A stretch of DNA of 64,000 nt from NCBI RefSeq assembly GCF_016862815.1, contig NZ_BONR01000003.1, positions 186,001-250,000 of the forward strand, read 5' to 3'. A program made the translations under genes and the position numbers. The stretch's first letter is position 1, and each line of letters opens with the position of its first letter. The notes under the pieces are model-generated. The model had not been told where the DNA came from, did no database searches, and saw nothing but the letters and a program-made list of their open reading frames with translations. The DNA comes from Demequina activiva. Lineage in GTDB: Bacteria > Actinomycetota > Actinomycetes > Actinomycetales > Demequinaceae. Positions 17,616 to 31,687 of this stretch are shown piece after piece.

Positions 17616-18008
17616 ATGTCCGCTCCTGCTGCCCCGCCAGGGTGGTACCGGCGCTCCGACGGGCTCGAGCGCTGGTGGGACGGCACGGCGTGGACGGCAC
17701 ACGAGCGAGTCGCCCCGGTTGATCCATCCAACGCCTCGGCCCAGCCGTCCCTCTACACGCAGCCCTTCGAGCCGCGCGGCGGCATCCGTTGGGGGCTGTT
17801 CGAGCCCGTCTGGTCGACCGTCGGAGGCATCTGCCTCATCGTCGTGGCGCTGCCGCTGCTGCTGTTCGCGCTGCTGTCGCTCGTGACCGGCTCGGTGCTG
17901 TCCGCAGTGGGGATGGGGCTCATGGGCCTCGCCTTCATCGGCTGCGGCGTCGCGTTCCTGTACGACGCCTCCGTGGGCCGCCGGCTGCGTCGCGCGTCCG
18001 GGCGCTGA
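17616..18008 (+). CDS. DUF2510 membrane protein
   Basis: A 130-residue small membrane protein. The N-terminal PPGWYRRSDGLERWWDG is a DUF2510 motif, common in actinobacterial membrane proteins and usually facing the cytoplasm. Two membrane helices follow (about 68-92 and 96-118). DUF2510 function is unknown. It follows menA by 38 bp with its own -10 box, and nothing ties it to menaquinone synthesis. A second DUF2510 protein is at 39638. Confidence 0.7.
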   Translation: MSAPAAPPGWYRRSDGLERWWDGTAWTAHERVAPVDPSNASAQPSLYTQPFEPRGGIRWGLFEPVWSTVGGICLIVVALPLLLFALLSLVTGSVLSAVGMGLMGLAFIGCGVAFLYDASVGRRLRRASGR

Positions 18009-18024
18009 GCCCCACCGCCGCCGC

Positions 18025-18294
18025 TCAGCGCCGGCTCTGCGAGTCCTCGCCGCCGATCTCCGCGTCCTCCTCGGCATCCTCCGCGCGACGCGCCTTGCCC
18101 GACCTGTCGAGCATGGTGGCCATCTGCTCCTGCGCCTCGCGCCGCAGCCGCGGCAGGGCGAGGTAGGAGATCAGCCACGCGACCACGAACGCGGCGATGA
18201 CCGCGATGATGTCGAACCATCCCACGAGCCACAGCGCGGCGACCACGGCGAAGAAGATGCCGGTCCGGGCGGCCCAGTAGGCGAAGATCTTCAT
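18025..18294 (-). CDS. DUF4229 small membrane protein
   Basis: An 89-residue protein with two membrane helices (about 9-27 and 29-47) joined by a short turn, then a basic and acidic cytoplasmic tail (RRAEDAEEDAEIGGED). MKIFAYWAARTGIF and YLALPRLRREA fit the DUF4229 family found widely near menA in actinobacteria. Its role is unknown. The start is supported by TAATCT exactly 6 nt before the ATG. Convergent with the DUF2510 gene, 16 bp apart. Confidence 0.7.
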   Translation of the reverse strand: MKIFAYWAARTGIFFAVVAALWLVGWFDIIAVIAAFVVAWLISYLALPRLRREAQEQMATMLDRSGKARRAEDAEEDAEIGGEDSQSRR

Positions 18295-18300
18295 GAGAAC

Positions 18301-18306
18301 AGATTA
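18301..18306 (-). promoter_or_regulatory. -10 box TAATCT, leaderless
   Basis: TAATCT on the minus strand is 6 nt before the DUF4229 ATG, almost touching the opposite TAGAGT box. Confidence 0.45.
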
Positions 18307-18314
18307 CGCGGGGT

Positions 18315-18320
18315 TAGAGT
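18315..18320 (+). promoter_or_regulatory. -10 box TAGAGT, leaderless
   Basis: TAGAGT ends 6 nt before the ATG at 18327. Confidence 0.45.
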
Positions 18321-18326
18321 GACGCC

Positions 18327-18617
18327 ATGCTTCGCGTCCTGCTGTTCGTGATCCCCATCGCACTCGCCGTCTACTGCATCGCTGATGCGGTCCAGCATCC
18401 CGAGGAGCAGCCGTACGGGCTGCCGCGCTGGGCGTGGGTGCTCATCATCCTGTTCTTCCCGTACATCGGCGCCGGCGTCTGGCTCTATCTGAAGTTCTCG
18501 CGACCGGCCTCAGGTGGCCAGCAGCAGCGCGGCCCCATCGCCCCTGACGACGACCCGGAGTACCTCGCGTGGCTGCGCGACCAGGAGCGCCGTCGCAAGC
18601 GCCAGGGCGGCGAGTAG
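18327..18617 (+). CDS. PLDc_N-domain small membrane protein
   Basis: A 96-residue protein with two hydrophobic helices (about 2-20 and 35-56) of the PLDc_N (phospholipase D nuclease N-terminal) type: the phrase LPRWAWVLIILFFPYIGAGVWLYL is the family core. The tail is charged and ends RRKRQGGE. The domain occurs alone in many actinobacteria without any catalytic part, so no enzymatic role is implied. It is divergent from the DUF4229 gene with only about 30 bp between the starts. Confidence 0.7.
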   Translation: MLRVLLFVIPIALAVYCIADAVQHPEEQPYGLPRWAWVLIILFFPYIGAGVWLYLKFSRPASGGQQQRGPIAPDDDPEYLAWLRDQERRRKRQGGE

Positions 18618-18643
18618 CCCCTCACCCGGAGGAGGCTCGTGGC

Positions 18644-19807
18644 TCAGGCGGCGTAGAGCGCGAGGATCTGCTCGCCCACCACGGCGACATCGAAGCGCTT
18701 GACCCGCTCGGCCTGCTCGGCGTGGAGCTCGGCACGCAGCGCGTCGTCCTCGATGAGGCGTCGCAGCGCCCCGGCGAAGGCGGCCGTGTCGCGTGCGTCG
18801 ACGCTGACCTCCGCACGGTCTCCCAGCACCGACAGGTACCCGGGGTTCGCGCCTCCCAGCACCACTCCGGCGCCGGACGCCATCGCCTCGATCAGCACGA
18901 TCCCGAAGCTCTCCCCGCCGGTGGCGGGGAACACCGCGATGTCCGCAGCCGCGTAGTACGCGGGCTTGTCCTCCTCCGCCACGAAGCCGTCGAGCGTCAC
19001 CATGGTCTCGAGCCCGTGCGCGGCTGCCGCCGCCTCGACGGCTCCCGCGAGCGGACCCTTGCCGCCGATGCGCACCTCGAGCCGGTCTCGCACGGAGCTC
19101 GGGAGGGCCCCGAGGGCCGCGATGAGCTCGAGCGCTCCCTTGCGCTCGACCAGGCGTCCCAGGAAGACGATGCGCAGCCGACCGCCCTCCCCCCGCCTTT
19201 CCGAGAATTTGGCACCATTTTCATCGTCCAGGGCCCTGGACGATGAAAATGGTGCCAAATTCTGGAAGAGAGTGGTGTCGATCGCGCAGGGGATCACGGT
19301 TGCGGTGATGCCGAAGGCGCGCGCCGCGAACTGCGCAGCGGGCGCGGACACGGCGCAGAATGCGTCGAACTTGGCGAGGTTGCGACGCTGCCACCGCCCC
19401 AGCATCCGGGTGCCGTACTCGCTCACGGCGCCGTCGGGAAGGATGTGGAAGGTCCCCACGATCCGCACGGTGCGGGCCTGCACCCGGCGAGCCTCGTCCA
19501 CCACGCGCGAGGCGAACAGCGGCGAGTGCGGGATCTGCACGTGGATCACGTCGTAGCGCTCGCGCTCGAGGAAATCGCGCAGCATGGATCGCGAGGTGGG
19601 CAGCGGCACGCGCAGCCCGTTCCCGTTGAAGGTGACCCCCACGTTGCGGGCCAGCGAGTGCACGGTGACGTCGGTGCGGGACGCCTCCGAGCACACGTAG
19701 TGGACCTCGTGGCCCTCACGCTCGAGGAACGCCCCCAGGGTCAGCACATACTGCTGCACCCCGTCCGGACGGTCGATCGAGTCGTCCAGGACCATCGCAA
19801 TCTTCAT
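18644..19807 (-). CDS. GT4 glycosyltransferase carrying a palindromic insertion
   Basis: GT-B fold glycosyltransferase of family 4, 387 residues, cytoplasmic, likely acting on a lipid or envelope acceptor. The N-terminal Rossmann domain starts MKIAMVLDDSIDRPDGVQQY; the C-terminal nucleotide-sugar domain has RIVFLGRLVERKGALELIAA and the donor-binding FPATGGESFGIVLIEAMASG (E-x7-E). Between them, in the interdomain linker, 20 residues around RALDDENG are encoded by a perfect 60-bp palindrome, in frame. Normal family members go almost straight from the VIPC-ID segment to the LRIVFLG strand, so these residues are an insertion that seems tolerated. It starts 7 bp after ccsB. A PimB-like mannosyltransferase is possible from mycobacterial gene order, but unproven. 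Confidence 0.85.
   Translation of the reverse strand: MKIAMVLDDSIDRPDGVQQYVLTLGAFLEREGHEVHYVCSEASRTDVTVHSLARNVGVTFNGNGLRVPLPTSRSMLRDFLERERYDVIHVQIPHSPLFASRVVDEARRVQARTVRIVGTFHILPDGAVSEYGTRMLGRWQRRNLAKFDAFCAVSAPAAQFAARAFGITATVIPCAIDTTLFQNLAPFSSSRALDDENGAKFSERRGEGGRLRIVFLGRLVERKGALELIAALGALPSSVRDRLEVRIGGKGPLAGAVEAAAAAHGLETMVTLDGFVAEEDKPAYYAAADIAVFPATGGESFGIVLIEAMASGAGVVLGGANPGYLSVLGDRAEVSVDARDTAAFAGALRRLIEDDALRAELHAEQAERVKRFDVAVVGEQILALYAA
19204..19263. repeat. 60-bp perfect palindrome inside the GT4 gene
   Basis: Two 30-nt arms, AGAATTTGGCACCATTTTCA followed by TCGTCCAGGG, meet at GGGCCC and pair without a mismatch. It is much richer in A+T than its surroundings. It is a multiple of three and reads in frame in the glycosyltransferase. 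Its outer 22 bp recur at both ends of the element at 25681-25827, so it is one member of a repeat family. Confidence 0.95.
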
Positions 19808-19814
19808 GCGACCG

Positions 19815-20861
19815 CTAGACCCCCGCGTAGCTGTGGAGGCCTTGGAACACGAGGTTGACCACCGTGAAGTTCATGAGCAGCGCCACGAAGCCGGCGACGG
19901 CGATGTACGCGCTGCGGCGCCCGGCCCAGCCCTGGGTGGTGCGGGCGTGGAGGTAGGCGGCGTAGATCACCCAGATGACGAAGGACCACACCTCCTTGGG
20001 GTCCCAGCCCCAGTACCGACCCCAGGCGTGCTCGGCCCACACCGCTCCGGCCATGACGGTGAAGGTCCACAGCACGAAGCCCACGGCGTGCAGGCGGAAG
20101 GAGAGCGCCTCGAGCTTCTCCGGCTCCGGCACCCCCTCGAGCCACCGCAAGCGCTTCAGCAACCGCAGGTTCGCGTTGCGCCACTGCCGGCCCCACCGGA
20201 TCAGAGCGTTCGAGGCGCCGGCCGTGTCGACGGGCTCATCCTCCCGGCGATCGCGCATGAGCTGCAGCACGGTCGCCACGAACGCGACCGTGAAGACGCC
20301 GGTCGCGATGATCGCGATCGACACGTGGATGACCAGCCAGAAGCTCTGGAGCGCGGGCTGCAGGCCCGTCGAGGCCTGGTACAGCGTGGTGAGGCCCAGA
20401 CCCAACGCGATGGCCGCGAATCCGGTCACTCCCGGCGCGAGGTAGGACACGTCACGCTTGCGCTGCACGATGAGGAAGACCACCACCGCCACCCAGGTGC
20501 CGGTGATGGTGTACTCGTACATCGTGGACCACGGCACATGGCCGGCCTCGATGCCGCGGGCGACCACGCCGATGCCCTGGAGCACCGCGCCCACCAGGGT
20601 GGTCGAGGCGGCGATGCCTGCGGCCTTGGTGCGCATCGGTTCCGCGGGAATGGCCGATGCACGGGCAGAGGTCGTGGCAGCGTCTCCCTCGGCGGCGCTC
20701 GAGCCAGCGCTCGAGGCGCCCACCGCGGACCGCACCTTGCCCTTGGCGGCGGCCTTCGCATCGGCCACTCGCGCGAGGTGGATCGAGGAGGCGACCATCG
20801 CGATCGCGTACAGCGCGGTGGCACCCCACAGCGCGTACCAGCTCAGTTCCTGCGCGGTCAT
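19815..20861 (-). CDS. ccsB: cytochrome c biogenesis protein CcsB (heme-handling subunit)
   Basis: Polytopic membrane protein of system II cytochrome c maturation that, with ResB, exports heme and ligates it to apocytochromes outside the membrane. 348 residues, about eight helices. The WWD heme-handling motif reads WGRYWGWDPKEVWSFVIWVIY (near residues 268-288), and histidines sit in LHARTTQGWAG, VIHVSIAI and FRLHAVGF as expected for external and internal heme ligands. A low-complexity Ala/Ser linker (about 36-75) separates helix 1 from the rest, a common actinobacterial feature. The ATG overlaps the resB stop by four bases and follows GGAGGA. Confidence 0.93.
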   Translation of the reverse strand: MTAQELSWYALWGATALYAIAMVASSIHLARVADAKAAAKGKVRSAVGASSAGSSAAEGDAATTSARASAIPAEPMRTKAAGIAASTTLVGAVLQGIGVVARGIEAGHVPWSTMYEYTITGTWVAVVVFLIVQRKRDVSYLAPGVTGFAAIALGLGLTTLYQASTGLQPALQSFWLVIHVSIAIIATGVFTVAFVATVLQLMRDRREDEPVDTAGASNALIRWGRQWRNANLRLLKRLRWLEGVPEPEKLEALSFRLHAVGFVLWTFTVMAGAVWAEHAWGRYWGWDPKEVWSFVIWVIYAAYLHARTTQGWAGRRSAYIAVAGFVALLMNFTVVNLVFQGLHSYAGV

Positions 20862-22486
20862 CGGTCCTCCGGGGGGTGCTCGTTCGTGGCGGGCGTGAGG
20901 TGGGCGGTGGAGAGGATCCGGTCGAGCTCCTCGGCCGCTCCTGAGTCGTGCGCCGGCGCCCACGCAGCCGCCGTCACCACTGTAGCCGCGCCGCCTGGGG
21001 GCGCTGTCGCGGGGGCGACGAGCCAGATGCGCCGGCGGGTCCCGAACAGGCTCATCGCGAGCCCCGCGAGCGCGCCGATGGCCGCCGCCAGCAGCCACGG
21101 TAGCGACGGGTCGCGGCGCAGGTCGAAGGCGGCGAAGCGGGGCAGGCTGTCCCAGGTGACGCTGCCCAGGCCGTCGGGCAGGTCGATGGTCTGCCCGGGC
21201 GTCATCGCGACCAGCAGCGGCTGGCCGTCGTCGCCGCGCACGGGGCTCAGCTGGGACTCGTCGAGCTGGTAGACGTTCTGCGGGATGCCCGCGTCGAGTC
21301 CCAGGTCGCCCGTGTAGGCCTGGAGATAGATCACGGGGTTGGTGGGTGACGGGTGCAGCGACTGCGCACCCACCGCGTCGCCGGAGCTCGTGGGCAGCAG
21401 CGTCGCCTTGAAGCCCAGCTGCTCGCCCTCGGTGACATCGGGCACCTTGATGACGCCCGTCGAGGTGTAGACCTCGTCCTGCGGCAAGAACGGCACCGCA
21501 CCGCGGAAGGCCACCTCGCCCGAGGAGTCGGTCACGGTGAACACAGGGGCGTAGCCGTTGCCCTGCAGGTAGATCTTGGCGCCGTCGACCTGAATGGGGC
21601 GGTTGACCTGTGCCTCGACCTCACGCGGCTCCTGGCCGGGCTCGGTCAGCGTCGCGTAGGCCGTGAACTCGGTGGGGGCGCCCGCGAGGCTGAACTGCGC
21701 GTCGAAGCTGTCGAGCGAGAGCGTCCACGGCTCGAGCTGGTCCTCGCTGAACAGCGCGCCGGACTCGTAGGAGTCGTACGCCACCACGGCGTTCGTGAAC
21801 GTGTCGCCCTCGACGATCAGCGCCTGGCCGCGATACGTCAGCACCGATCCCGCCGCGACCGCGAGCAGGATGCCCACGAGCGAGACGTGGAAGATCAGGT
21901 TGCCGAGCTCGCGCAGGTGGCCCTGGTGGGCGCTGAGCGCGAGCTCGGTGCCCTCACGGGCGCTGCGCTCGTCGATCCGCACGCGGTAGCCGGAGAGCCA
22001 GCGCCACGGCGCGGGGCCGGTGCCTTCGAGCGCCACGCGAACGTCCTCCAGCGCCTCGCGCGGCTCCTGATCGGCCGATGCGGTGGTGGGCTCATAGCGG
22101 TCCAGGCGTGAGGGGGTGGCCGGGACGGGCGCGCGCAGCTCACGCCAGTACACCAGGCACCGGGGGATGATGCAGCCGATGAGCGACGCGAACAGCAGCA
22201 GGTAGATCGCGGTGAACCACGCGGATCCGAACACGTCGAGGAAGCCGGTCGCGTCCAGCAGCGGGCCCCAGAACGGGTTCGCGTCGATGAAGGCGCGCGT
22301 GTCGCCCGCGTCCTGGGGCCACTGCGGCAGCACGGACCCGGGGATGGCCGCGAGAGCGAGCAGCAGCAGCAGGATCAGCGCCACTCGCATCGACGTGACC
22401 TGGCGCCAGATCCACCGCAGCCAGCCCACGAAGCCCAGCCTCGGGACCGCCGCGTAGGCGTAGTTGTCCATCTTGACGCGAGCCAT
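20858..22486 (-). CDS. resB: cytochrome c biogenesis protein ResB
   Basis: Partner of CcsB in the system II synthase. 542 residues: three membrane helices in the first 170 residues (including MRVALILLLLLALAAIPGSV and WFTAIYLLLFASLIGCIIPR), a large extracytoplasmic domain from about 240, and a last helix near LPWLLAAAIGALAGLAMSLF, giving the usual ResB layout. The domain holds the typical GNLIFHVSLVGILLAVAAG helix with its conserved His. A poorly conserved C-terminal tail of about 60 residues follows. The start codon shares one base with the ccdA stop (TGATG). Part of resA-ccdA-resB-ccsB. Confidence 0.92.
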   Translation of the reverse strand: MARVKMDNYAYAAVPRLGFVGWLRWIWRQVTSMRVALILLLLLALAAIPGSVLPQWPQDAGDTRAFIDANPFWGPLLDATGFLDVFGSAWFTAIYLLLFASLIGCIIPRCLVYWRELRAPVPATPSRLDRYEPTTASADQEPREALEDVRVALEGTGPAPWRWLSGYRVRIDERSAREGTELALSAHQGHLRELGNLIFHVSLVGILLAVAAGSVLTYRGQALIVEGDTFTNAVVAYDSYESGALFSEDQLEPWTLSLDSFDAQFSLAGAPTEFTAYATLTEPGQEPREVEAQVNRPIQVDGAKIYLQGNGYAPVFTVTDSSGEVAFRGAVPFLPQDEVYTSTGVIKVPDVTEGEQLGFKATLLPTSSGDAVGAQSLHPSPTNPVIYLQAYTGDLGLDAGIPQNVYQLDESQLSPVRGDDGQPLLVAMTPGQTIDLPDGLGSVTWDSLPRFAAFDLRRDPSLPWLLAAAIGALAGLAMSLFGTRRRIWLVAPATAPPGGAATVVTAAAWAPAHDSGAAEELDRILSTAHLTPATNEHPPEDR

Positions 22487-23259
22487 CACACCGCCACCCA
22501 GAAGCCGTCGATCCAGCCCTGCAGCAATGCGGTGAGCTGCCCCCACAGGCCCGTCACGAGCATCACGCCCAGCACCACCAGCATCGCGCCGCCGAACAGC
22601 TGCAGTCCGCGACGGTGCTTGCGCAGCCACCGCAGGATGGTCCCGGACCGCTCGAACCAGATCGCGAGCGCGAGGAACGGCAGGCCCAGGCCCAGGCAGT
22701 AGACGACGGCCAGGATGGACCCCCGCAGCACGGTGCCCTCGTTGAGCCCGAGCGCGAGAACGGCGGACAGCGTGGGGCCGATGCACGGCGCCCAGCCCAG
22801 TCCGAAGACCACGCCCAGCACCGGGGCTCCCGCGAGGCCGGCCTTGGGGCTGATGTGCAGGCGACGCTCATTCTGCAGGAACGGCACGGCGCCCATGAAG
22901 GCGAGTCCCATCAGGATCACCAGGACGCCCAGCACGCGGGTGATGATGTCGAGCTGCGCCCGGAACTCCGCACCCGCGGTGGACACGACGATGCTCAGGG
23001 TCACGAAGACCGCGGAGAAGCCCAGGATGAACAGCAGCACGCCGAGGATGAGGCGCGGACGCGAGGCCTTGCCCCCGGCATCGGCCCCCGCCATCCCCGA
23101 GACGTAGCCCAGGTAGCCGGGAACCAGCGGCACCACGCACGGGGAGGCGAAGCTCACGAGGCCCGCCAGCAGCGCGATGGGGATCGCCGCCAGCAGCGAG
23201 CCGGTCAGCACGGTCGAGGACAGCTCGGTGCCGATCCCGGACGCGAGCGCCCCACCCAT
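22486..23259 (-). CDS. ccdA: cytochrome c biogenesis thiol carrier CcdA
   Basis: Six-helix membrane protein of the CcdA/DsbD family that moves reducing equivalents from cytoplasmic thioredoxin to extracytoplasmic ResA. 257 residues. The two redox cysteines lie in the conserved phrases VSFASPCVVPLVPGYL (helix 1) and GLGWAPCIGPTLSAVL (helix 4). ATG chosen because it forms the TGATG overlap with the resA stop. Cotranscribed and probably translationally coupled with resA upstream and resB downstream. Confidence 0.94.
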   Translation of the reverse strand: MGGALASGIGTELSSTVLTGSLLAAIPIALLAGLVSFASPCVVPLVPGYLGYVSGMAGADAGGKASRPRLILGVLLFILGFSAVFVTLSIVVSTAGAEFRAQLDIITRVLGVLVILMGLAFMGAVPFLQNERRLHISPKAGLAGAPVLGVVFGLGWAPCIGPTLSAVLALGLNEGTVLRGSILAVVYCLGLGLPFLALAIWFERSGTILRWLRKHRRGLQLFGGAMLVVLGVMLVTGLWGQLTALLQGWIDGFWVAV

Positions 23260-23819
23260 CAGGACGCCGCCCCGTCGACCAGCGCCTGCAACGTCGACGG
23301 CTCGACGCGGCCGATGACGCGCGCCGCGACACGGCCCTCGGTGTCGAGGATCAGCGAGGTGGGCACCGCATTGATCGCGACGAGGCCCTGCAGGCGGGCG
23401 ATCGCCTGGCCGTCGTCGTCCTCGATGCTCGGGTACTCCACCGAGAAGGTGCGGTCGAACGCGAGGGCGGTCTCCGCATCGTCCCGGCTGTTGATGCCCA
23501 GCACCTGGACGTCCTCGCGAGCATCGAGCGCGACCAGATCGGGCGCCTCGGCCCGGCACGGCGGGCAGGAGGCGTACCACGTGTTGATCAGCACCACCTG
23601 GCCCCGGTAGTCCGCGACGTCCACGGCCTCGCCCTCGAAGCTGGTGCCGGCGAGGTCGACGGGCTCGCCGCGCTCGGCCACGGCCCACTCGGTGACGGTG
23701 CCGTCGCCGGAGACGTACCCGGGCGACTCCGTGGCGTCGCCGGGCGCGCACGCCGTGAGCCACAGCACCACGGCGATGAGCACCGCGGCAAGCAGCACCA
23801 GCCGCGCGGACCGCTTCAC
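23259..23819 (-). CDS. resA: ResA-like thioredoxin lipoprotein
   Basis: Extracytoplasmic thioredoxin that keeps apocytochrome c cysteines reduced for heme attachment. 186 residues. The signal peptide ends in the lipobox LTAC (about residues 21-24), so it is probably a lipoprotein rather than simply membrane-spanning. The thioredoxin fold carries the active site WYASCPPCRAEAPDL and the cis-Pro region AINAVPTSLILDTEG. The GTG start overlaps the phosphatase-gene stop (GTGA), and its own stop overlaps ccdA. The four genes from here to ccsB form a compact operon. Confidence 0.92.
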   Translation of the reverse strand: MKRSARLVLLAAVLIAVVLWLTACAPGDATESPGYVSGDGTVTEWAVAERGEPVDLAGTSFEGEAVDVADYRGQVVLINTWYASCPPCRAEAPDLVALDAREDVQVLGINSRDDAETALAFDRTFSVEYPSIEDDDGQAIARLQGLVAINAVPTSLILDTEGRVAARVIGRVEPSTLQALVDGAAS

Positions 23820-24436
23820 GCCGGGACCTCGATGTGCGCGGCGGGCTCCCGATAGTCCATCGCCACCGGCTCGCCGTCCTCGAACGCGAAGCTCGTCAGC
23901 GACGCGAGGCCGCACTCACGGGAGCGGGGATCGTGCAGATAGCGGCGCTTCTCGAAGCTCAGGCGCGCCACCCAGATGGGGAGCTGATGGCTGACCATCA
24001 CCGTGTCCGTGCCCGGGTTCGCCGCGGCGGCGTCGCGGATCGCAGCCCACATCCGGTCGCGCTGCTCGGTGTACGGCTCGCCCCAGGACGGTCTCCAGGG
24101 ATTGCGCAGCAGCCACCAGTTGCGAGGGTGGATGAAGTCTGCGGCGCCGGACTGGAGGGGCCGTCCCTCGTAGGCGTTCGCCGCCTCGATCAGGCGCTCG
24201 TCCGTGATGATCCCCAGGCCGAACGCGGCCGCGATGGGCGCGGCGGTCTCCTGCGCGCGCTGGAGAGGCGAGGCGACCACGCGGCCCACCGTCGCGCCCC
24301 GGGCGACCAGGTCGTCGGCGACCGCCTGCGCCATGGCCTGTCCCGCGTCCGACAGGCGGAACTGTGGCAGGCGTCCGTACAGGACCTTGTCCGGGTTGTG
24401 GACGTGGCCGTGACGGAGCAGGTGGACCGTGGGCAT
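23816..24436 (-). CDS. histidine phosphatase family protein
   Basis: Phosphoglycerate-mutase-like phosphatase, 206 residues, cytoplasmic. The catalytic RHG is in TVHLLRHGHVHNP, the acidic partner in the ERLIEAANAYEG region, and the second histidine in TDTVMVSHQLPIWV. The substrate cannot be inferred; most members of this branch are broad phosphatases rather than mutases. A GACAAT box 7 nt before the ATG suggests a leaderless start. It heads the cytochrome maturation operon, a position it also holds in mycobacteria (Rv0525 next to Rv0526-Rv0529, from memory). Confidence 0.88.
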   Translation of the reverse strand: MPTVHLLRHGHVHNPDKVLYGRLPQFRLSDAGQAMAQAVADDLVARGATVGRVVASPLQRAQETAAPIAAAFGLGIITDERLIEAANAYEGRPLQSGAADFIHPRNWWLLRNPWRPSWGEPYTEQRDRMWAAIRDAAAANPGTDTVMVSHQLPIWVARLSFEKRRYLHDPRSRECGLASLTSFAFEDGEPVAMDYREPAAHIEVPA

Positions 24437-24457
24437 GATGTCTATTGTCGCCCAGGC

Positions 24458-24718
24458 TCAGGCGTGCACGGAACCTGGCCCCGCCTGCAGCGCGGCCCGC
24501 AGGCGCGCCGGGTCGATGCGCCAGAATCCCACCACCTGCTGGTCGACGATGACCACGGGCACCTCGTCGCCGAACCGCTCCGCGAGCCGCTCGTGCGCGT
24601 CGACGTCGACCTCGCGCCAGTCCACGTCCGCCGTCGCGCACTCCTGCTCGACGAGCGCGCGAGCGTCCGCGCACAGGTGGCAGCCAGCGCGGACCAGAAG
24701 GGAGACGCGGGGGGCCAT
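24458..24718 (-). CDS. glutaredoxin-like protein
   Basis: An 86-residue thioredoxin-fold protein. RAGCHLCADARALVEQ carries a CxxC (Cys-His-Leu-Cys) near residue 13, and VPVVIVDQQVVGFWRID is the cis-Pro strand. This matches the DUF836/glutaredoxin-like proteins common beside serB-like genes in actinobacteria (Rv0508 in M. tuberculosis, from memory). It probably takes part in cytoplasmic thiol exchange. The start was chosen by the TACCCT box 7 nt upstream; a much longer open frame overlaps the HAD gene in antisense and is not credible. Confidence 0.85.
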   Translation of the reverse strand: MAPRVSLLVRAGCHLCADARALVEQECATADVDWREVDVDAHERLAERFGDEVPVVIVDQQVVGFWRIDPARLRAALQAGPGSVHA

Positions 24719-24725
24719 GCGGACC

Positions 24726-24731
24726 AGGGTA
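24726..24731 (-). promoter_or_regulatory. -10 box TACCCT, leaderless
   Basis: TACCCT on the minus strand is 7 nt before the glutaredoxin-like ATG. Confidence 0.5.
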
Positions 24732-24757
24732 CGGCTCGGAGGTTGGCGCGCGGTAGG

Positions 24758-24763
24758 TAGGGT
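24758..24763 (+). promoter_or_regulatory. -10 box TAGGGT, leaderless
   Basis: TAGGGT ends 6 nt before the GTG of the HAD phosphatase gene. Confidence 0.5.
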
Positions 24764-24769
24764 GGCACC

Positions 24770-25645
24770 GTGACAGGCCCCGCACGCGACGCCGGCGCTA
24801 CCGGAATCGCCGCGTTCTTCGACGTGGACAACACGATCGTCCGCGGAGCGTCCGCCTACCACATCGCGCGCGGCCTGCATCAGCGCGGATACCTGCGCAA
24901 GCGCGACATCCTGAGGTTCGGATGGGAGTCCGCCAAGTACTCGATGTTCGGCGAGACCAAGGAGCAGATCGACGATCTCCGCCATGAGGGCCTGGGCATC
25001 ATCAAGGGATGGTCGGCCGCGGAGATGGTCGCGGTGGGCGAAGAGGTCTACGACGAGGTGCTCGCGCTGCGGATCTACCCCGGCACCAAGGCGATCATCG
25101 ACGAGCACCGTGCTCAAGGGCACCAGGTGTGGCTGGTGACCGCCTCCCCCATCGAGGTGGGCAGCGTGATCGCACGGCGCCTGGGGTGCACCGGAGCGCT
25201 CGGCACGGTCGCCGAGCAGGAGTACGGCTACTACACCGGGCGCCTCGTGGGCGACATGCTGCACCGCGAGGCGAAGGCGACGGCGGTGCGGAAGCTGGCA
25301 CTGGAGGAGGGGCTCAACCTCGACCGATGCCACGCCTACGGGGACTCGATGAACGACGGCCCCATGCTGGAGGCGGTGGGCCACCCCTGCGCGATCAACC
25401 CGGACACCAAGCTCCGGCGCTTCGCGCGCGAGCGCGGCTGGCCCATCCAGGAGTTTCGCAAGCGCACCAAGAGCGGTCGCCGCGGAGTGGTGAAGGGCTC
25501 GATCACGGGCACCGTCTGGGCCGGACTGGCGGTCGCGCGTGGCGTCAGGGCCGCGGTGCGCGGAGCGCTGCGGCCCGTGCGCGCACGCACGGCCGAGGTC
25601 GGGCCCACCCCGCGGGTCCACGATGACGAGGCGAAGGGCCTGTAG
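24770..25645 (+). CDS. HAD-IB family phosphatase (SerB-like)
   Basis: Haloacid-dehalogenase superfamily phosphatase of subfamily IB, 291 residues, cytoplasmic. Motif I is FFDVDNTIVRG (nucleophile Asp), motif II VWLVTASP, motif III the Lys in LHREAKATAVRKLA, motif IV HAYGDSMNDGPMLE. The cap is the helical IB type. The family includes phosphoserine phosphatase, but many members have other phosphomonoester substrates. The basic C-terminus (TKSGRRGVVKGSITGTVWAG) has a weak amphipathic or membrane-contact look. Leaderless GTG start. The palindromic element begins 35 bp after the stop. Confidence 0.88.
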   Translation: MTGPARDAGATGIAAFFDVDNTIVRGASAYHIARGLHQRGYLRKRDILRFGWESAKYSMFGETKEQIDDLRHEGLGIIKGWSAAEMVAVGEEVYDEVLALRIYPGTKAIIDEHRAQGHQVWLVTASPIEVGSVIARRLGCTGALGTVAEQEYGYYTGRLVGDMLHREAKATAVRKLALEEGLNLDRCHAYGDSMNDGPMLEAVGHPCAINPDTKLRRFARERGWPIQEFRKRTKSGRRGVVKGSITGTVWAGLAVARGVRAAVRGALRPVRARTAEVGPTPRVHDDEAKGL

Positions 25646-25680
25646 GGCCCGCCCGCTCCCACCCCCGCTTTCTCCCGGGG

Positions 25681-25827
25681 AGTTTGGCACCCTTTTCGTC
25701 GCCTCAGCGAGTGCGTGAGGAAGAAACTTCCACGCGTGGGTGACCGCGCATCGGCCGATGCACGGGTGCCGCGTGGAGGTTTCTTCCTCTTCTCGCGACT
25801 TGGGCGATGAAAATGGTGCCAAATTCT
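25681..25827. repeat. 147-bp imperfect inverted repeat, second copy of the palindromic element
   Basis: Arms of about 73 bp. The outer ends read AGTTTGGCACCCTTTTCGTC on the left and, reversed, AGAATTTGGCACCATTTTCA on the right, the same 22-bp end found in the GT4 palindrome. Inside, GAGGAAGAAAC-T/C-TCCACGCG is repeated inversely, and the centre is the palindrome GCATCGGCCGATGC (25748-25761). The arms differ at several sites. It lies between the HAD gene stop and the bS22 gene, with nothing else recognisable in the gap of about 280 bp apart from a hairpin. It could be a mobile palindrome, a structured RNA or a transcription barrier. Confidence 0.9.
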
Positions 25828-25903
25828 GGGAGGTGGGGGGAGGCGGGGACACGACGACGCCCGCGCCACCGGAACCGGTGACACGGGCGTGTGCGTGATC
25901 GCT

Positions 25904-25920
25904 GCCGGGTCAGACCCGGC
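25904..25920 (-). terminator. hairpin downstream of the bS22 gene
   Basis: GCCGGGT and ACCCGGC pair around a 3-nt loop, 6 bp after the bS22 stop. There is no T-run, as is usual in high-GC actinobacteria. Confidence 0.45.
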
Positions 25921-25926
25921 GCGGGA

Positions 25927-26025
25927 CTACTTCTTGTTGCGGCGCTGGTGGCGCGTCTTGCGAAGCAGCTTGCGGTGCTTCTTCTTCGACATGCGCTTGC
26001 GACGCTTCTTGATGACGGATCCCAC
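25927..26025 (-). CDS. small ribosomal protein bS22 (AURKAIP1/COX24 domain)
   Basis: A 32-residue, extremely basic protein beginning MGSVIKKRRKRMSKKKHRK and ending RRNKK; half of its residues are Lys or Arg. It matches the AURKAIP1/COX24 C-terminal domain proteins shown to be a small-subunit ribosomal protein (bS22) in mycobacteria, where it binds 16S rRNA near the decoding region. The GTG start follows GAGGTAGG. The next gene upstream on the same strand is the HTH protein at 26094, matching the order Rv0500A-Rv0500B of M. tuberculosis as I remember it. Confidence 0.9.
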   Translation of the reverse strand: MGSVIKKRRKRMSKKKHRKLLRKTRHQRRNKK

Positions 26026-26093
26026 GGAACCTACCTCGACTAGATGAGTGGTGCTACGACGTCCAGAACGCGCTGGACGCGACAGACAAGGAT

Positions 26094-26330
26094 CTAGCCT
26101 ACCGTGCCGGAGCGCTGGTCGTCATCTTCGACGAATCCGCCCTGGAGCTCGGCCTGCTCCATGAAGGTCTCGACGGCGGCGGCGGGGACGCGGAAAGAGC
26201 GACCGAAGCGGACGGCGGGCATGTCGCCGGCGTGGACCCAGCGGTACACCGTCATGCGCGACACCCGCAGCATGTCTGCGACCTCAGCGACGGTGAGGAA
26301 CGTGGTGCGCGACGCGCCGTTGTCAGCCAT
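26094..26330 (-). CDS. excisionase-family helix-turn-helix DNA-binding protein
   Basis: A 78-residue winged-helix protein of the MerR/excisionase superfamily. FLTVAEVADMLRVSRMTVYRWVHAGDMPAVRFGRSFRVPA spans the helix-turn-helix and wing; a short acidic tail follows. It resembles M. tuberculosis Rv0500A (same wording TVAEVA, RVS-MTVYR, LPAVRVGRSFRV, from memory) and is more distantly like BldC of Streptomyces. It is a chromosomal regulator and not a sign of a prophage, since no integrase is near. The ATG is preceded by GGAGACAGGAAACGC. It stands 68 bp before the bS22 gene on the same strand. Confidence 0.85.
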   Translation of the reverse strand: MADNGASRTTFLTVAEVADMLRVSRMTVYRWVHAGDMPAVRFGRSFRVPAAAVETFMEQAELQGGFVEDDDQRSGTVG

Positions 26331-26514
26331 GCGTTTCCTGTCTCCCTCATCTCGCGTTCGGCAAGGCTATCGGCTGAACGCTTCCCCAACTGTAGTGGCA
26401 GAAGTGACAGTTGTGAAGAGTGGGAAACGTGCCGATGATGTCTAGAGGCGGGCATTCGCGCGCCTCGTCGCGGCGTGCCCGCGGTGGGTGGAACCGGGGC
26501 TGACAAGGAGTCGC

Positions 26515-27888
26515 ATGGACAAGCTGCGCGAGGCGGGCGCCGCTGTCGGCGAATGGGTCGACACGTCCCTCCTCAAGTCCCCCGCGCGCCTGGCGCTGGG
26601 CAGCTTCGCGATCGTGATCCTCCTGTTCACCGGCCTGCTGTCGCTTCCGATCGCCACGGAGACGGGCGAGCGCGCCCCCTTCATCGACGCCTTGTTCACG
26701 GCCACGTCCGCGGTGTGCGTCACCGGGCTGGTGACCGTGGACACGGGCCTGTACTGGTCCGGGTGGGGGCTCGGGATCATCGCGCTCGGCATCAAGGTCG
26801 GGGGCCTGGGAATCATGACCCTCGCCTCGCTCGTGGGGCTCGCGGTCTCGCGTCGCCTGGGCCTCACGCAGCGGCTCCTTGCCGCCGGCGAGGCACGCGC
26901 GGCCGGCCTAGGCGACCTGCGCTCGCTGCTGCGCACCGTCGTGGTGGTGTCCTTCTCCGTGGAGATCGCCATCGCGCTGGTGCTGTTCCCACGCTTCCTC
27001 ACGCTGGACTACGGATTCTGGCGCTCCCTCGGCTACTCGGGCTTCTACGGGATCTCCGCATTCAACAACGCCGGCTTCACCCCGGATCCGCTGGGCCTGA
27101 TCCCCTACGCGGGCGACTTCTGGATGCTGGTGCCCATCGGGCTCGGCGTCCTCGTGGGCGCCCTCGGCTACCCGGTCTACCTCAACCTGATCCGCGGCTG
27201 GCGCAGGCCGCGGGACTGGTCGCTGCACACCAAGCTCACCCTCATCATGGTGTCCGCGCTCACGGTGGTCTCCGCGGGCCTGCTCGCCGTCTTCGAGTGG
27301 TCCAACCCAGACACGCTCGGCGACCACTCCTCCGCCAAGAGCATCGGCAACATCTTCTTCCAGTCCATCAACCAGCGCTCCGGAGGCTTCAACAGCTTCG
27401 ACATCGGCAAGGCACGCGAGCAGACATGGCTCCTCGAGGACGTGCTGATGTTCATCGGCGGCGGCTCGGGATCGACCGCAGGCGGCATCCGCGTCACCAC
27501 GCTGGCGGTGCTGCTGCTCGCGATCTGGGCGGAGGCGCGCGGACGGCGCGACATGGAGGCCTTCGGCAAGCGCATCGGCACGGAGGTGCTGCGCGGGGCC
27601 GTCGCGATCACGCTCATCGGGCTGTTCATCGTGATCATCGGCACCACGGTGTTCATGGCCCAGACCGACATCCCCCTCGACCAGGCGCTGTACGAGGTCG
27701 TGTCTGCGTACGCCACCTGCGGTCTGAGCACCGGCATCACCGCCGACCTCCCGCCCGAGGCCAAGGGCACCCTCATCGCGATGATGTATCTGGGCCGCGT
27801 GGGGTCGCTCACGATCGCGGCCGCGCTAGCGTTGAACAAGCAGCGGCGCGTGATCCGCTACCCGTCAGAAAGGCCGATCATTGGCTAG
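26515..27888 (+). CDS. TrkH/KtrB-type potassium transporter membrane subunit
   Basis: Potassium-conducting subunit of a Trk/Ktr uptake system, 457 residues, with four M1-P-M2 repeats. The four selectivity-filter segments are ATSAVCVTGLV, SAFNNAGFT, INQRSGGFNS and YATCGLSTG. GGGSGSTAGGIRVTT is the conserved loop that gates the pore. The length is that of KtrB more than of long E. coli TrkH. The start is the ATG 4 nt after AAGGAG; 184 bp separate it from the divergent HTH gene. Its stop overlaps the trkA start by 8 bp, so the two are one operon. Confidence 0.92.
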   Translation: MDKLREAGAAVGEWVDTSLLKSPARLALGSFAIVILLFTGLLSLPIATETGERAPFIDALFTATSAVCVTGLVTVDTGLYWSGWGLGIIALGIKVGGLGIMTLASLVGLAVSRRLGLTQRLLAAGEARAAGLGDLRSLLRTVVVVSFSVEIAIALVLFPRFLTLDYGFWRSLGYSGFYGISAFNNAGFTPDPLGLIPYAGDFWMLVPIGLGVLVGALGYPVYLNLIRGWRRPRDWSLHTKLTLIMVSALTVVSAGLLAVFEWSNPDTLGDHSSAKSIGNIFFQSINQRSGGFNSFDIGKAREQTWLLEDVLMFIGGGSGSTAGGIRVTTLAVLLLAIWAEARGRRDMEAFGKRIGTEVLRGAVAITLIGLFIVIIGTTVFMAQTDIPLDQALYEVVSAYATCGLSTGITADLPPEAKGTLIAMMYLGRVGSLTIAAALALNKQRRVIRYPSERPIIG

Positions 27889-31650: not shown

Positions 31651-31687
31651 GAGGGCCGATGCCCGGGTCGCCCGGGCATCGGCCCTC
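31651..31687 (-). terminator. perfect 17-bp stem hairpin after the glycosyltransferase fusion gene
   Basis: GAGGGCCGATGCCCGGG pairs fully with its reverse complement around a TCG loop, 43 bp past the stop of the leftward gene. There is no T-run. Each arm contains the octamer GCCGATGC/GCATCGGC that is over-represented in this window. Confidence 0.65.

Follow-up and report, generated by a model that had tools for sequence, protein, structure and literature searches.

We found that the perfect palindrome lying in frame within a GT4 glycosyltransferase gene of Demequina activiva, in the 64,000-nt stretch of DNA analyzed here (the window), belongs to a dispersed family of palindromic repeats, one copy of which encloses a gene for a DUF559/Vsr-like nuclease. 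We directly observed the family, its in-frame copies in protein genes, the association of such nuclease genes with flanking palindromes across species, and the fit between the palindromes in murC and the flanks of the nuclease genes. The explanation that we consider probable is a pairing like that of REPIN/RAYT, in which a vertically inherited DUF559 nuclease gene is accompanied by palindromes that it putatively mobilizes and homogenizes.

The palindrome in the GT4 gene was identical to its own reverse complement at all 60 bases, and an imperfect extension reached 19197-19270. Its GC content was 47%, compared with 71% in the window, and it was read in frame as exactly 20 codons of the host gene (Table 1). 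The perfect pairing, the AT-richness relative to the surroundings and the in-frame reading, as claimed in an earlier note made from the letters alone, were confirmed. The single-stranded fold of the palindrome had an energy of -33.2 kcal/mol (z -12.8), which was equaled by none of 200 shuffles, and two of the three reading frames were open in this copy. When the protein was aligned with the PimA structures 4n9w and 2gej, the insertion was located in a gapped stretch ahead of a segment of the second domain; i.e., the insertion point was a length-variable stretch between the two protein halves, which, going by GT4 folds, would be the inter-domain linker. The insertion was missing in 29 of 29 aligned congener orthologues (30 loci fetched, own included, out of 44 genomes with a match), two of which carried longer, alanine-rich linkers of other sequence.

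Table 1. Coordinates of the palindromic elements in the window and of the gene that hosts the short one.
Feature	Position	Strand	Evidence
Short palindromic element, perfect inverted repeat, in frame in GT4 gene	19204..19263	.	Self-complementarity and family membership
Twenty element-derived codons, reading QNLAPFSSSRALDDENGAKF	19205..19264	-	Own-genome murC encodes the near-identical QNLAPFSSSRRLHDENGAKF
Host gene, GT4 glycosyltransferase, 387 aa	18644..19807	-	PimA gave the closest solved structures
Long-form family copy, 147 bp, between convergent genes	25680..25826	.	Inverted-repeat search, end matches
Left outer arm of 147-bp copy	25680..25703	+	Inverted-repeat search
Right outer arm of 147-bp copy	25803..25826	-	Inverted-repeat search, end match
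Left inner arm of 147-bp copy, GAGGAAG...CTTCCAC block common to long copies	25717..25736	+	
Right inner arm of 147-bp copy	25770..25789	-	Inverted-repeat search, aligned ends

Within the window, a 19-nt part of the end of the palindrome had four matches with at most three mismatches, compared with none in 100 shuffles. In the whole 2.47-Mb genome, the 22-nt end GAATTTGGCACCATTTTCATCG had 37 matches at the same tolerance and its reversed control had none; that is, the copies far exceeded the one in the GT4 gene and the one at 25681 of which the earlier note was aware. The 37 ends were grouped into 17 inverted pairs and three half copies, giving 20 loci. Five pairs were short (58 bp), eleven spanned 147-263 bp and one spanned 1125 bp, and the mean identity of the outer arms was 95% across the 34 paired ends. 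Three parts made up each end of the long copies: the 22-nt arm on the outside, a CCCAAGGGC-like stretch, and GAGGAAG..CCTCCAC as the inner block. The terminal inverted repeat of full members was bipartite and about 60 bp long; in the 58-bp forms, two shortened ends appear to have been fused head to head. Members of the family have a pair of inverted repeats separated by a spacer that varies, and they can form a hairpin. Conserved interiors of the long copies were mostly rejected: beyond a recurring GGCCGATGCG-type motif and shorter local matches, the interiors were mostly unrelated, and a single pair (C1:650877 and C1:744002) was alike over 66 bp.

Using a simple gene caller, we assigned two of the 20 loci to genes, GT4 and murC, both of which read the element in frame; the window is about 91% coding. 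The 18 intergenic loci comprised ten convergent, six tandem and two divergent gaps, and convergent gaps were more frequent among them than among the gaps of the window (10/18 vs 6/37, P about 1.5e-4). Direct repeats at the boundaries of the 17 elements were not evident by eye, and empty sites were too diverged to align. The three half copies, each with one recognizable end, were found at L036 (C1:813685), L041 (C2:456372) and L033 (C1:696434), where the neighbors are presumably a MOSC-like gene, an aspS-like gene and a LacI-like/galK-like gap; these copies are possibly decaying remnants. As a separate observation, the 9-mer GCATCGGCC occurred at 29 places in the window against 2.26 expected (largest count in a 64-kb shuffle, 8), including 25748-25761 and 31654-31684, and at times as an inverted pair. 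Sequence related to it recurred within several long palindromic elements. The 9-mer could have a role in termination or uptake, or it could be a genome-signature motif of another kind.

The family appeared to be confined to its own species. The 22-nt end matched nothing in 46 further genomes of the bacterial family, 43 of them congeners, in genome sets that may omit records very near the genome of the window. An exact 18-mer searched across approximately 85,000 species was found in 42 stretches with one match each, compared with roughly 7 reckoned from equal base frequencies. We took these matches as chance, since 29 of the 42 stretches had less than 50% GC and none of the matches had an inverted partner within 400 bp at fewer than five mismatches. 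The element had no match in viral contigs (exact pattern) or in phages and plasmids (blastn, 74 bp). None of the five loci searched against Rfam produced a family at the gathering threshold, and the window from 18000 to 27000 yielded sub-threshold matches only, to lncRNA and miRNA models, which were taken as hairpin artefacts.

The 1125-bp copy encloses a DUF559/Vsr-like ORF of 305 aa. It matched the DUF559 profile with 25.2 bits, over the Pfam cut-off of 20.6, and the MTES_1575 profile with 34.7, under the cut-off of 38.2; MTES_1575 is described as an REase of the Vsr family in PMC3710099. The DUF559 domain was C-terminal and the front part of the protein had a weak AbiEi match under the cut-off, and in this arrangement the protein resembles both AbiEi-type antitoxins and DUF559/MTES_1575 (Vsr-like) nucleases. 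Residues D236, E247, D249, H254 and D263 were invariant in 29 of 29 aligned proteins, the broken copy of congener G010 being excluded. By analogy with the PD-(D/E)XK superfamily, a catalytic role is assumed for these residues, and the predicted enzyme looks like a member of that type. A sequence search returned no solved structure as a convincing match for the protein, and a profile structure search gave non-significant matches to endonuclease-like and abortive-infection proteins. Close orthologues of the gene occupied one syntenic locus, adjoining the same gene, which we take to be pheA-like, in all six species examined; distant DUF559 paralogues were present in the same genomes.

Two further observations concern individual genes. 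A second DUF559 gene of the same genome (L148, C1:127804-128700, within C1:126500-130000) was also flanked by an inverted repeat (30/32). The end of this gene had nine pattern matches in its genome, two at the gene and seven weaker ones elsewhere, and 0-2 matches in four congeners, with reversed controls also giving 0-2; it may perhaps define a second, smaller family. In G010, the DUF559 gene (L128, G010:C1:1207603-1208446) was split between two frames in a genome that retains many palindromes; the gene may truly be a pseudogene, or the split may stem from faulty assembly (completeness 50%).

We then compared DUF559 genes of other genomes. Long inverted repeats, differing in sequence from those of the own gene, flanked the congener orthologues (e.g., 64/64 in G006, 57/59 in G030 and 59/63 in G027), and flanking repeats were found at 6/6 testable close orthologues. 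Eight congeners had a close orthologue; two of these were outside the flank script, G041 for a contig edge and G010 for the split gene, and degenerate-pattern matches located arms to either side of the G010 gene copy. A flank score of at least 20 was reached by 14 of 30 DUF559 loci in the genus, own included, and by none of the genus-level controls, i.e., 0/617 and 0/368 overlapping pseudo-gene placements (0/985) and 0/30 GT4 loci. The remaining 16 of the 30 lacked a strong flanking repeat; some of these were paralogues, and the boundaries of L122 and L128 were awkward. Across the class, where 30 loci were fetched, five were outside the flank script and one was the own gene, the same score was reached at six of 24 testable non-own loci and missed at 18. 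A survey of 197 genomes from across the class found matches to DUF559/AbiEi-like genes in 154. Four loci from other families of the class (L297, L301, L302 and L308) had long inverted repeats on both sides of the DUF559 gene, with hairpin-like arms at the first three.

Dispersed copies of these flanks were also present. A degenerate pattern of the congener arms had matches in G006 (75+75), G021 (53+61), G038 (32+36), G041 (28+30), G010 (32+31), G031 (22+20), G030 (13+11), G027 (3+4), G004 (3+2) and G025 (1), some sites being counted twice owing to the near-palindromic core of the arm. It had none in 34 other genomes, own genome included, and the reversed pattern had one match only, in G011. 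At least five arm matches, counting the own family for G000, the genome of the window, were present in 9/9 genomes with a close DUF559 orthologue and in 1/35 without (Fisher 1.4e-8, kinship ignored); a close orthologue was one of at least 44% identity, a line set after the data, below which G015 (40%) and G032 (39%) fell. The lone palindrome-bearing genome without a close orthologue, G004 with five matches, possibly holds relics. The arms differed between species or small groups of species. The idea of one private arm per species was discarded, as the outer arms of G006, G038 and G021 were nearly identical. The DUF559 flank of a distant congener, G018, had 13 matches in G018, five in G023 and nine in G009, all with two to three mismatches, and none in G007 and G013. 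In another order of the same class, the G109 flank pattern had seven matches, four of them at the DUF559 gene, and none in three other genomes of its genus. Copy number was low outside the clade of close orthologues.

The second in-frame copy allowed species to be compared at a single site. The murC gene of the own genome holds a short copy in the reading frame used by the GT4 copy, encoding the peptide QNLAPFSSSRRLHDENGAKF, and the two peptides share the form QNLAPFSSSRxLxDENGAKF. In an alignment of 30 loci fetched out of 44 genomes, a palindrome was found at one murC codon in six species (G000, G041, G027, G030, G031 and G010), and the site was empty in the other 24. The own-species arm had 10-13 of 23 positions in common with those of the other five carriers (registered by hand). 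When each murC palindrome was compared with the DUF559 flanks, the flank of its own species gave the highest score for five of the six, G031 being tied with G010; the exception was G010, whose palindrome scored 23.5 with the flank of its sister G031 and 22.0 with its own. This own-species pairing was matched by two of 720 permutations, itself included, with flanks of unequal length.

We read the murC palindrome as an old insertion whose sequence has been replaced in concert with the other copies of its genome, with loss or transfer elsewhere. A single clade of six carriers was unsupported; they were non-monophyletic in the murC tree and in the murC+GT4 tree, falling into two groups, so that losses, transfer or repeated insertion at the same codon must be invoked. 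The two groups favor independent insertions at one preferred target codon, without rewriting in place, as does the fact that a few intergenic sites were likewise occupied in more than one species. Against this, T-H-L (T-D-L in G041) stood right before the palindrome in 6/6 carriers, covering both groups, and in none of the 24 empty genes; in addition, G000, G041, G027 and G030 clustered together (support 0.977 in the murC-only tree, 0.344 in the concatenated murC+GT4 tree) and their arms nonetheless differed. We regard independent insertion as possible but less likely than not. At other own-genome sites, examined in five congeners and excluding the murC site, the GT4 site and the nuclease locus, inspection revealed a host-type palindrome in the same gap in 7/67 site-by-species comparisons (three in G027, two in G006 and one each in G030 and G041). 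The other 60 showed none; eight of these contained another inverted repeat, and one stretch was shortened by the end of a contig.

On the favored explanation, i.e., a nuclease gene paired with its own palindromes, the palindrome in the GT4 gene would be a non-autonomous member of the repeat family, and the vertically inherited gene for the predicted PD-(D/E)XK nuclease, bounded by family ends, would be its cognate gene. The protein would recognize the ends, perhaps as hairpins or cruciforms, and nick or cut at them. Cutting would lead to the spread of copies and, via repair or gene conversion, to the overwriting of old copies with the current arm sequence, and selection would tolerate intergenic and short in-frame insertions. 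We infer this role of the protein in mobility and rewriting from the association described above; alternatively, the repeats could carry the DUF559 gene along as a passenger, or the gene could encode an autoregulator that binds to them.

If it were an autoregulator, the DUF559 protein would be only a DNA-binding regulator and the palindromes would be operators that evolve together with its specificity under selection, without being mobile. This is a serious rival, since AbiEi-type antitoxins bind inverted repeats at their own promoter (PMC7319586). The weak AbiEi match in the front of the protein and the fit of the murC palindromes to the DUF559 gene flanks agree with it. However, ten of the 18 intergenic loci were convergent and just two divergent, two copies were inside genes, the nuclease-type residues were kept in all 29 aligned proteins, and 60 of the 67 congener comparisons were without a host-type palindrome. 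We consider a purely regulatory role unlikely.

If the gene were a passenger in one copy, the repeats could be MITEs derived from a conventional IS (DDE or other) whose transposase has been lost or is unrecognized. Inverted-repeat ends with mostly unrelated interiors resemble MITEs or cargo-carrying mini-transposons, and the elements are, like MITEs, short, non-autonomous, bounded by terminal inverted repeats and without a transposase. Unlike the case of MITEs, a search limited to the Y1 family found no parent transposon encoding a known transposase, the ends surround a DUF559 gene rather than a known transposase, interiors are mostly unrelated between copies, and target duplication (direct repeats at the boundaries) was not visible by eye. 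Moreover, inverted repeats with other end sequences enclose DUF559 genes in several species, and the close orthologues of the gene share one syntenic locus. We consider this origin quite improbable. Finally, static structural or regulatory DNA kept by selection and immobile (bidirectional terminators or mRNA-stability hairpins) would account for strong hairpins and the preference for convergent gaps, but it is very improbable in view of the in-frame copies in two genes, the GT4 site empty in 29/29 aligned orthologues, the 60/67 intergenic comparisons lacking a host-type palindrome, the lack of a T run after the hairpin by eye, and the Rfam results, with no family at the gathering threshold in five loci and sub-threshold matches only at 18000-27000.

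Among known systems, REPIN/RAYT is by analogy the closest in its working, and by membership it is not the system found here. The enzyme gene in REPIN/RAYT is single-copy and vertically inherited, and the repeats are duplicated in trans, according to PMC8049555 and PMC8266576. The likeness of our repeats consists of small hairpin-forming units in tens of copies, mostly extragenic, a vertically inherited cognate gene flanked by the same repeats, and possible relics in a gene-less genome (G004). The differences are that the candidate enzyme belongs to the DUF559 PD-(D/E)XK type and has distant paralogues within its genome, that one murC site occupied in several species carries differing arms, and that an inner second arm block and in-frame gene insertions are present. 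A HuH Y1 transposase (PF01797) was rejected as the driver, being found in 0/8 genomes when the control was found in 5/14, and neither a GTAG nor a CGTC tag was seen by eye in the family consensus of aligned ends.

The earlier note had proposed an actinobacterial equivalent of the Rickettsia palindromic elements (RPEs). The part of this proposal that stands is the in-frame reading within protein genes, by which a conserved, tolerated peptide is added; this likeness is one of features. RPEs are about 150 bp long and nearly half of them, from three of ten families, are in genes, as given in PMC10969869. The equivalence did not hold further, as the genic form here is 58-60 bp, only two of 20 loci are genic, most elements have bipartite ends and measure 147-263 bp, and the family has a gene for a putative cognate enzyme. 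The notion of a mobile palindrome that survives by means of a tolerated peptide gained support from the dispersed copies, the second in-frame insertion in murC and the 29/29 empty GT4 orthologues. Of the two options that the note drew from its perfection, recent arrival or active maintenance, the GT4 copy fits the first, and active maintenance by rewriting in place also fits, since six species have palindromes with differing arms at the murC site.

These results suggest an unrecognized kind of small mobile DNA. More tentatively, and with somewhat less than even confidence, we propose a new class of intragenomic element, in which a Vsr-like, AbiEi-fronted nuclease would drive palindromes by homing-like cut-and-repair. 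As its specificity drifted, copies, even that in the essential murC, would be rewritten to the new arm, giving each species or small clade its own palindrome language, and the same would recur with other DUF559 genes of the class. Among the titles listed from the open-licence literature, we found no such pairing of DUF559 with dispersed palindromes. REPIN/RAYT serves as the standard example of a bacterial genome that maintains many tiny repeats alongside a single domesticated enzyme gene; a second case with an unrelated enzyme, if true, would mean that this arrangement arises repeatedly, and DUF559/AbiEi-like genes would gain a candidate role. Because the arms at one occupied murC site differ between species, it can be tested directly whether dispersed repeats in bacteria evolve in concert, and the copies translated within murC and the GT4 gene illustrate how proteins absorb such DNA.
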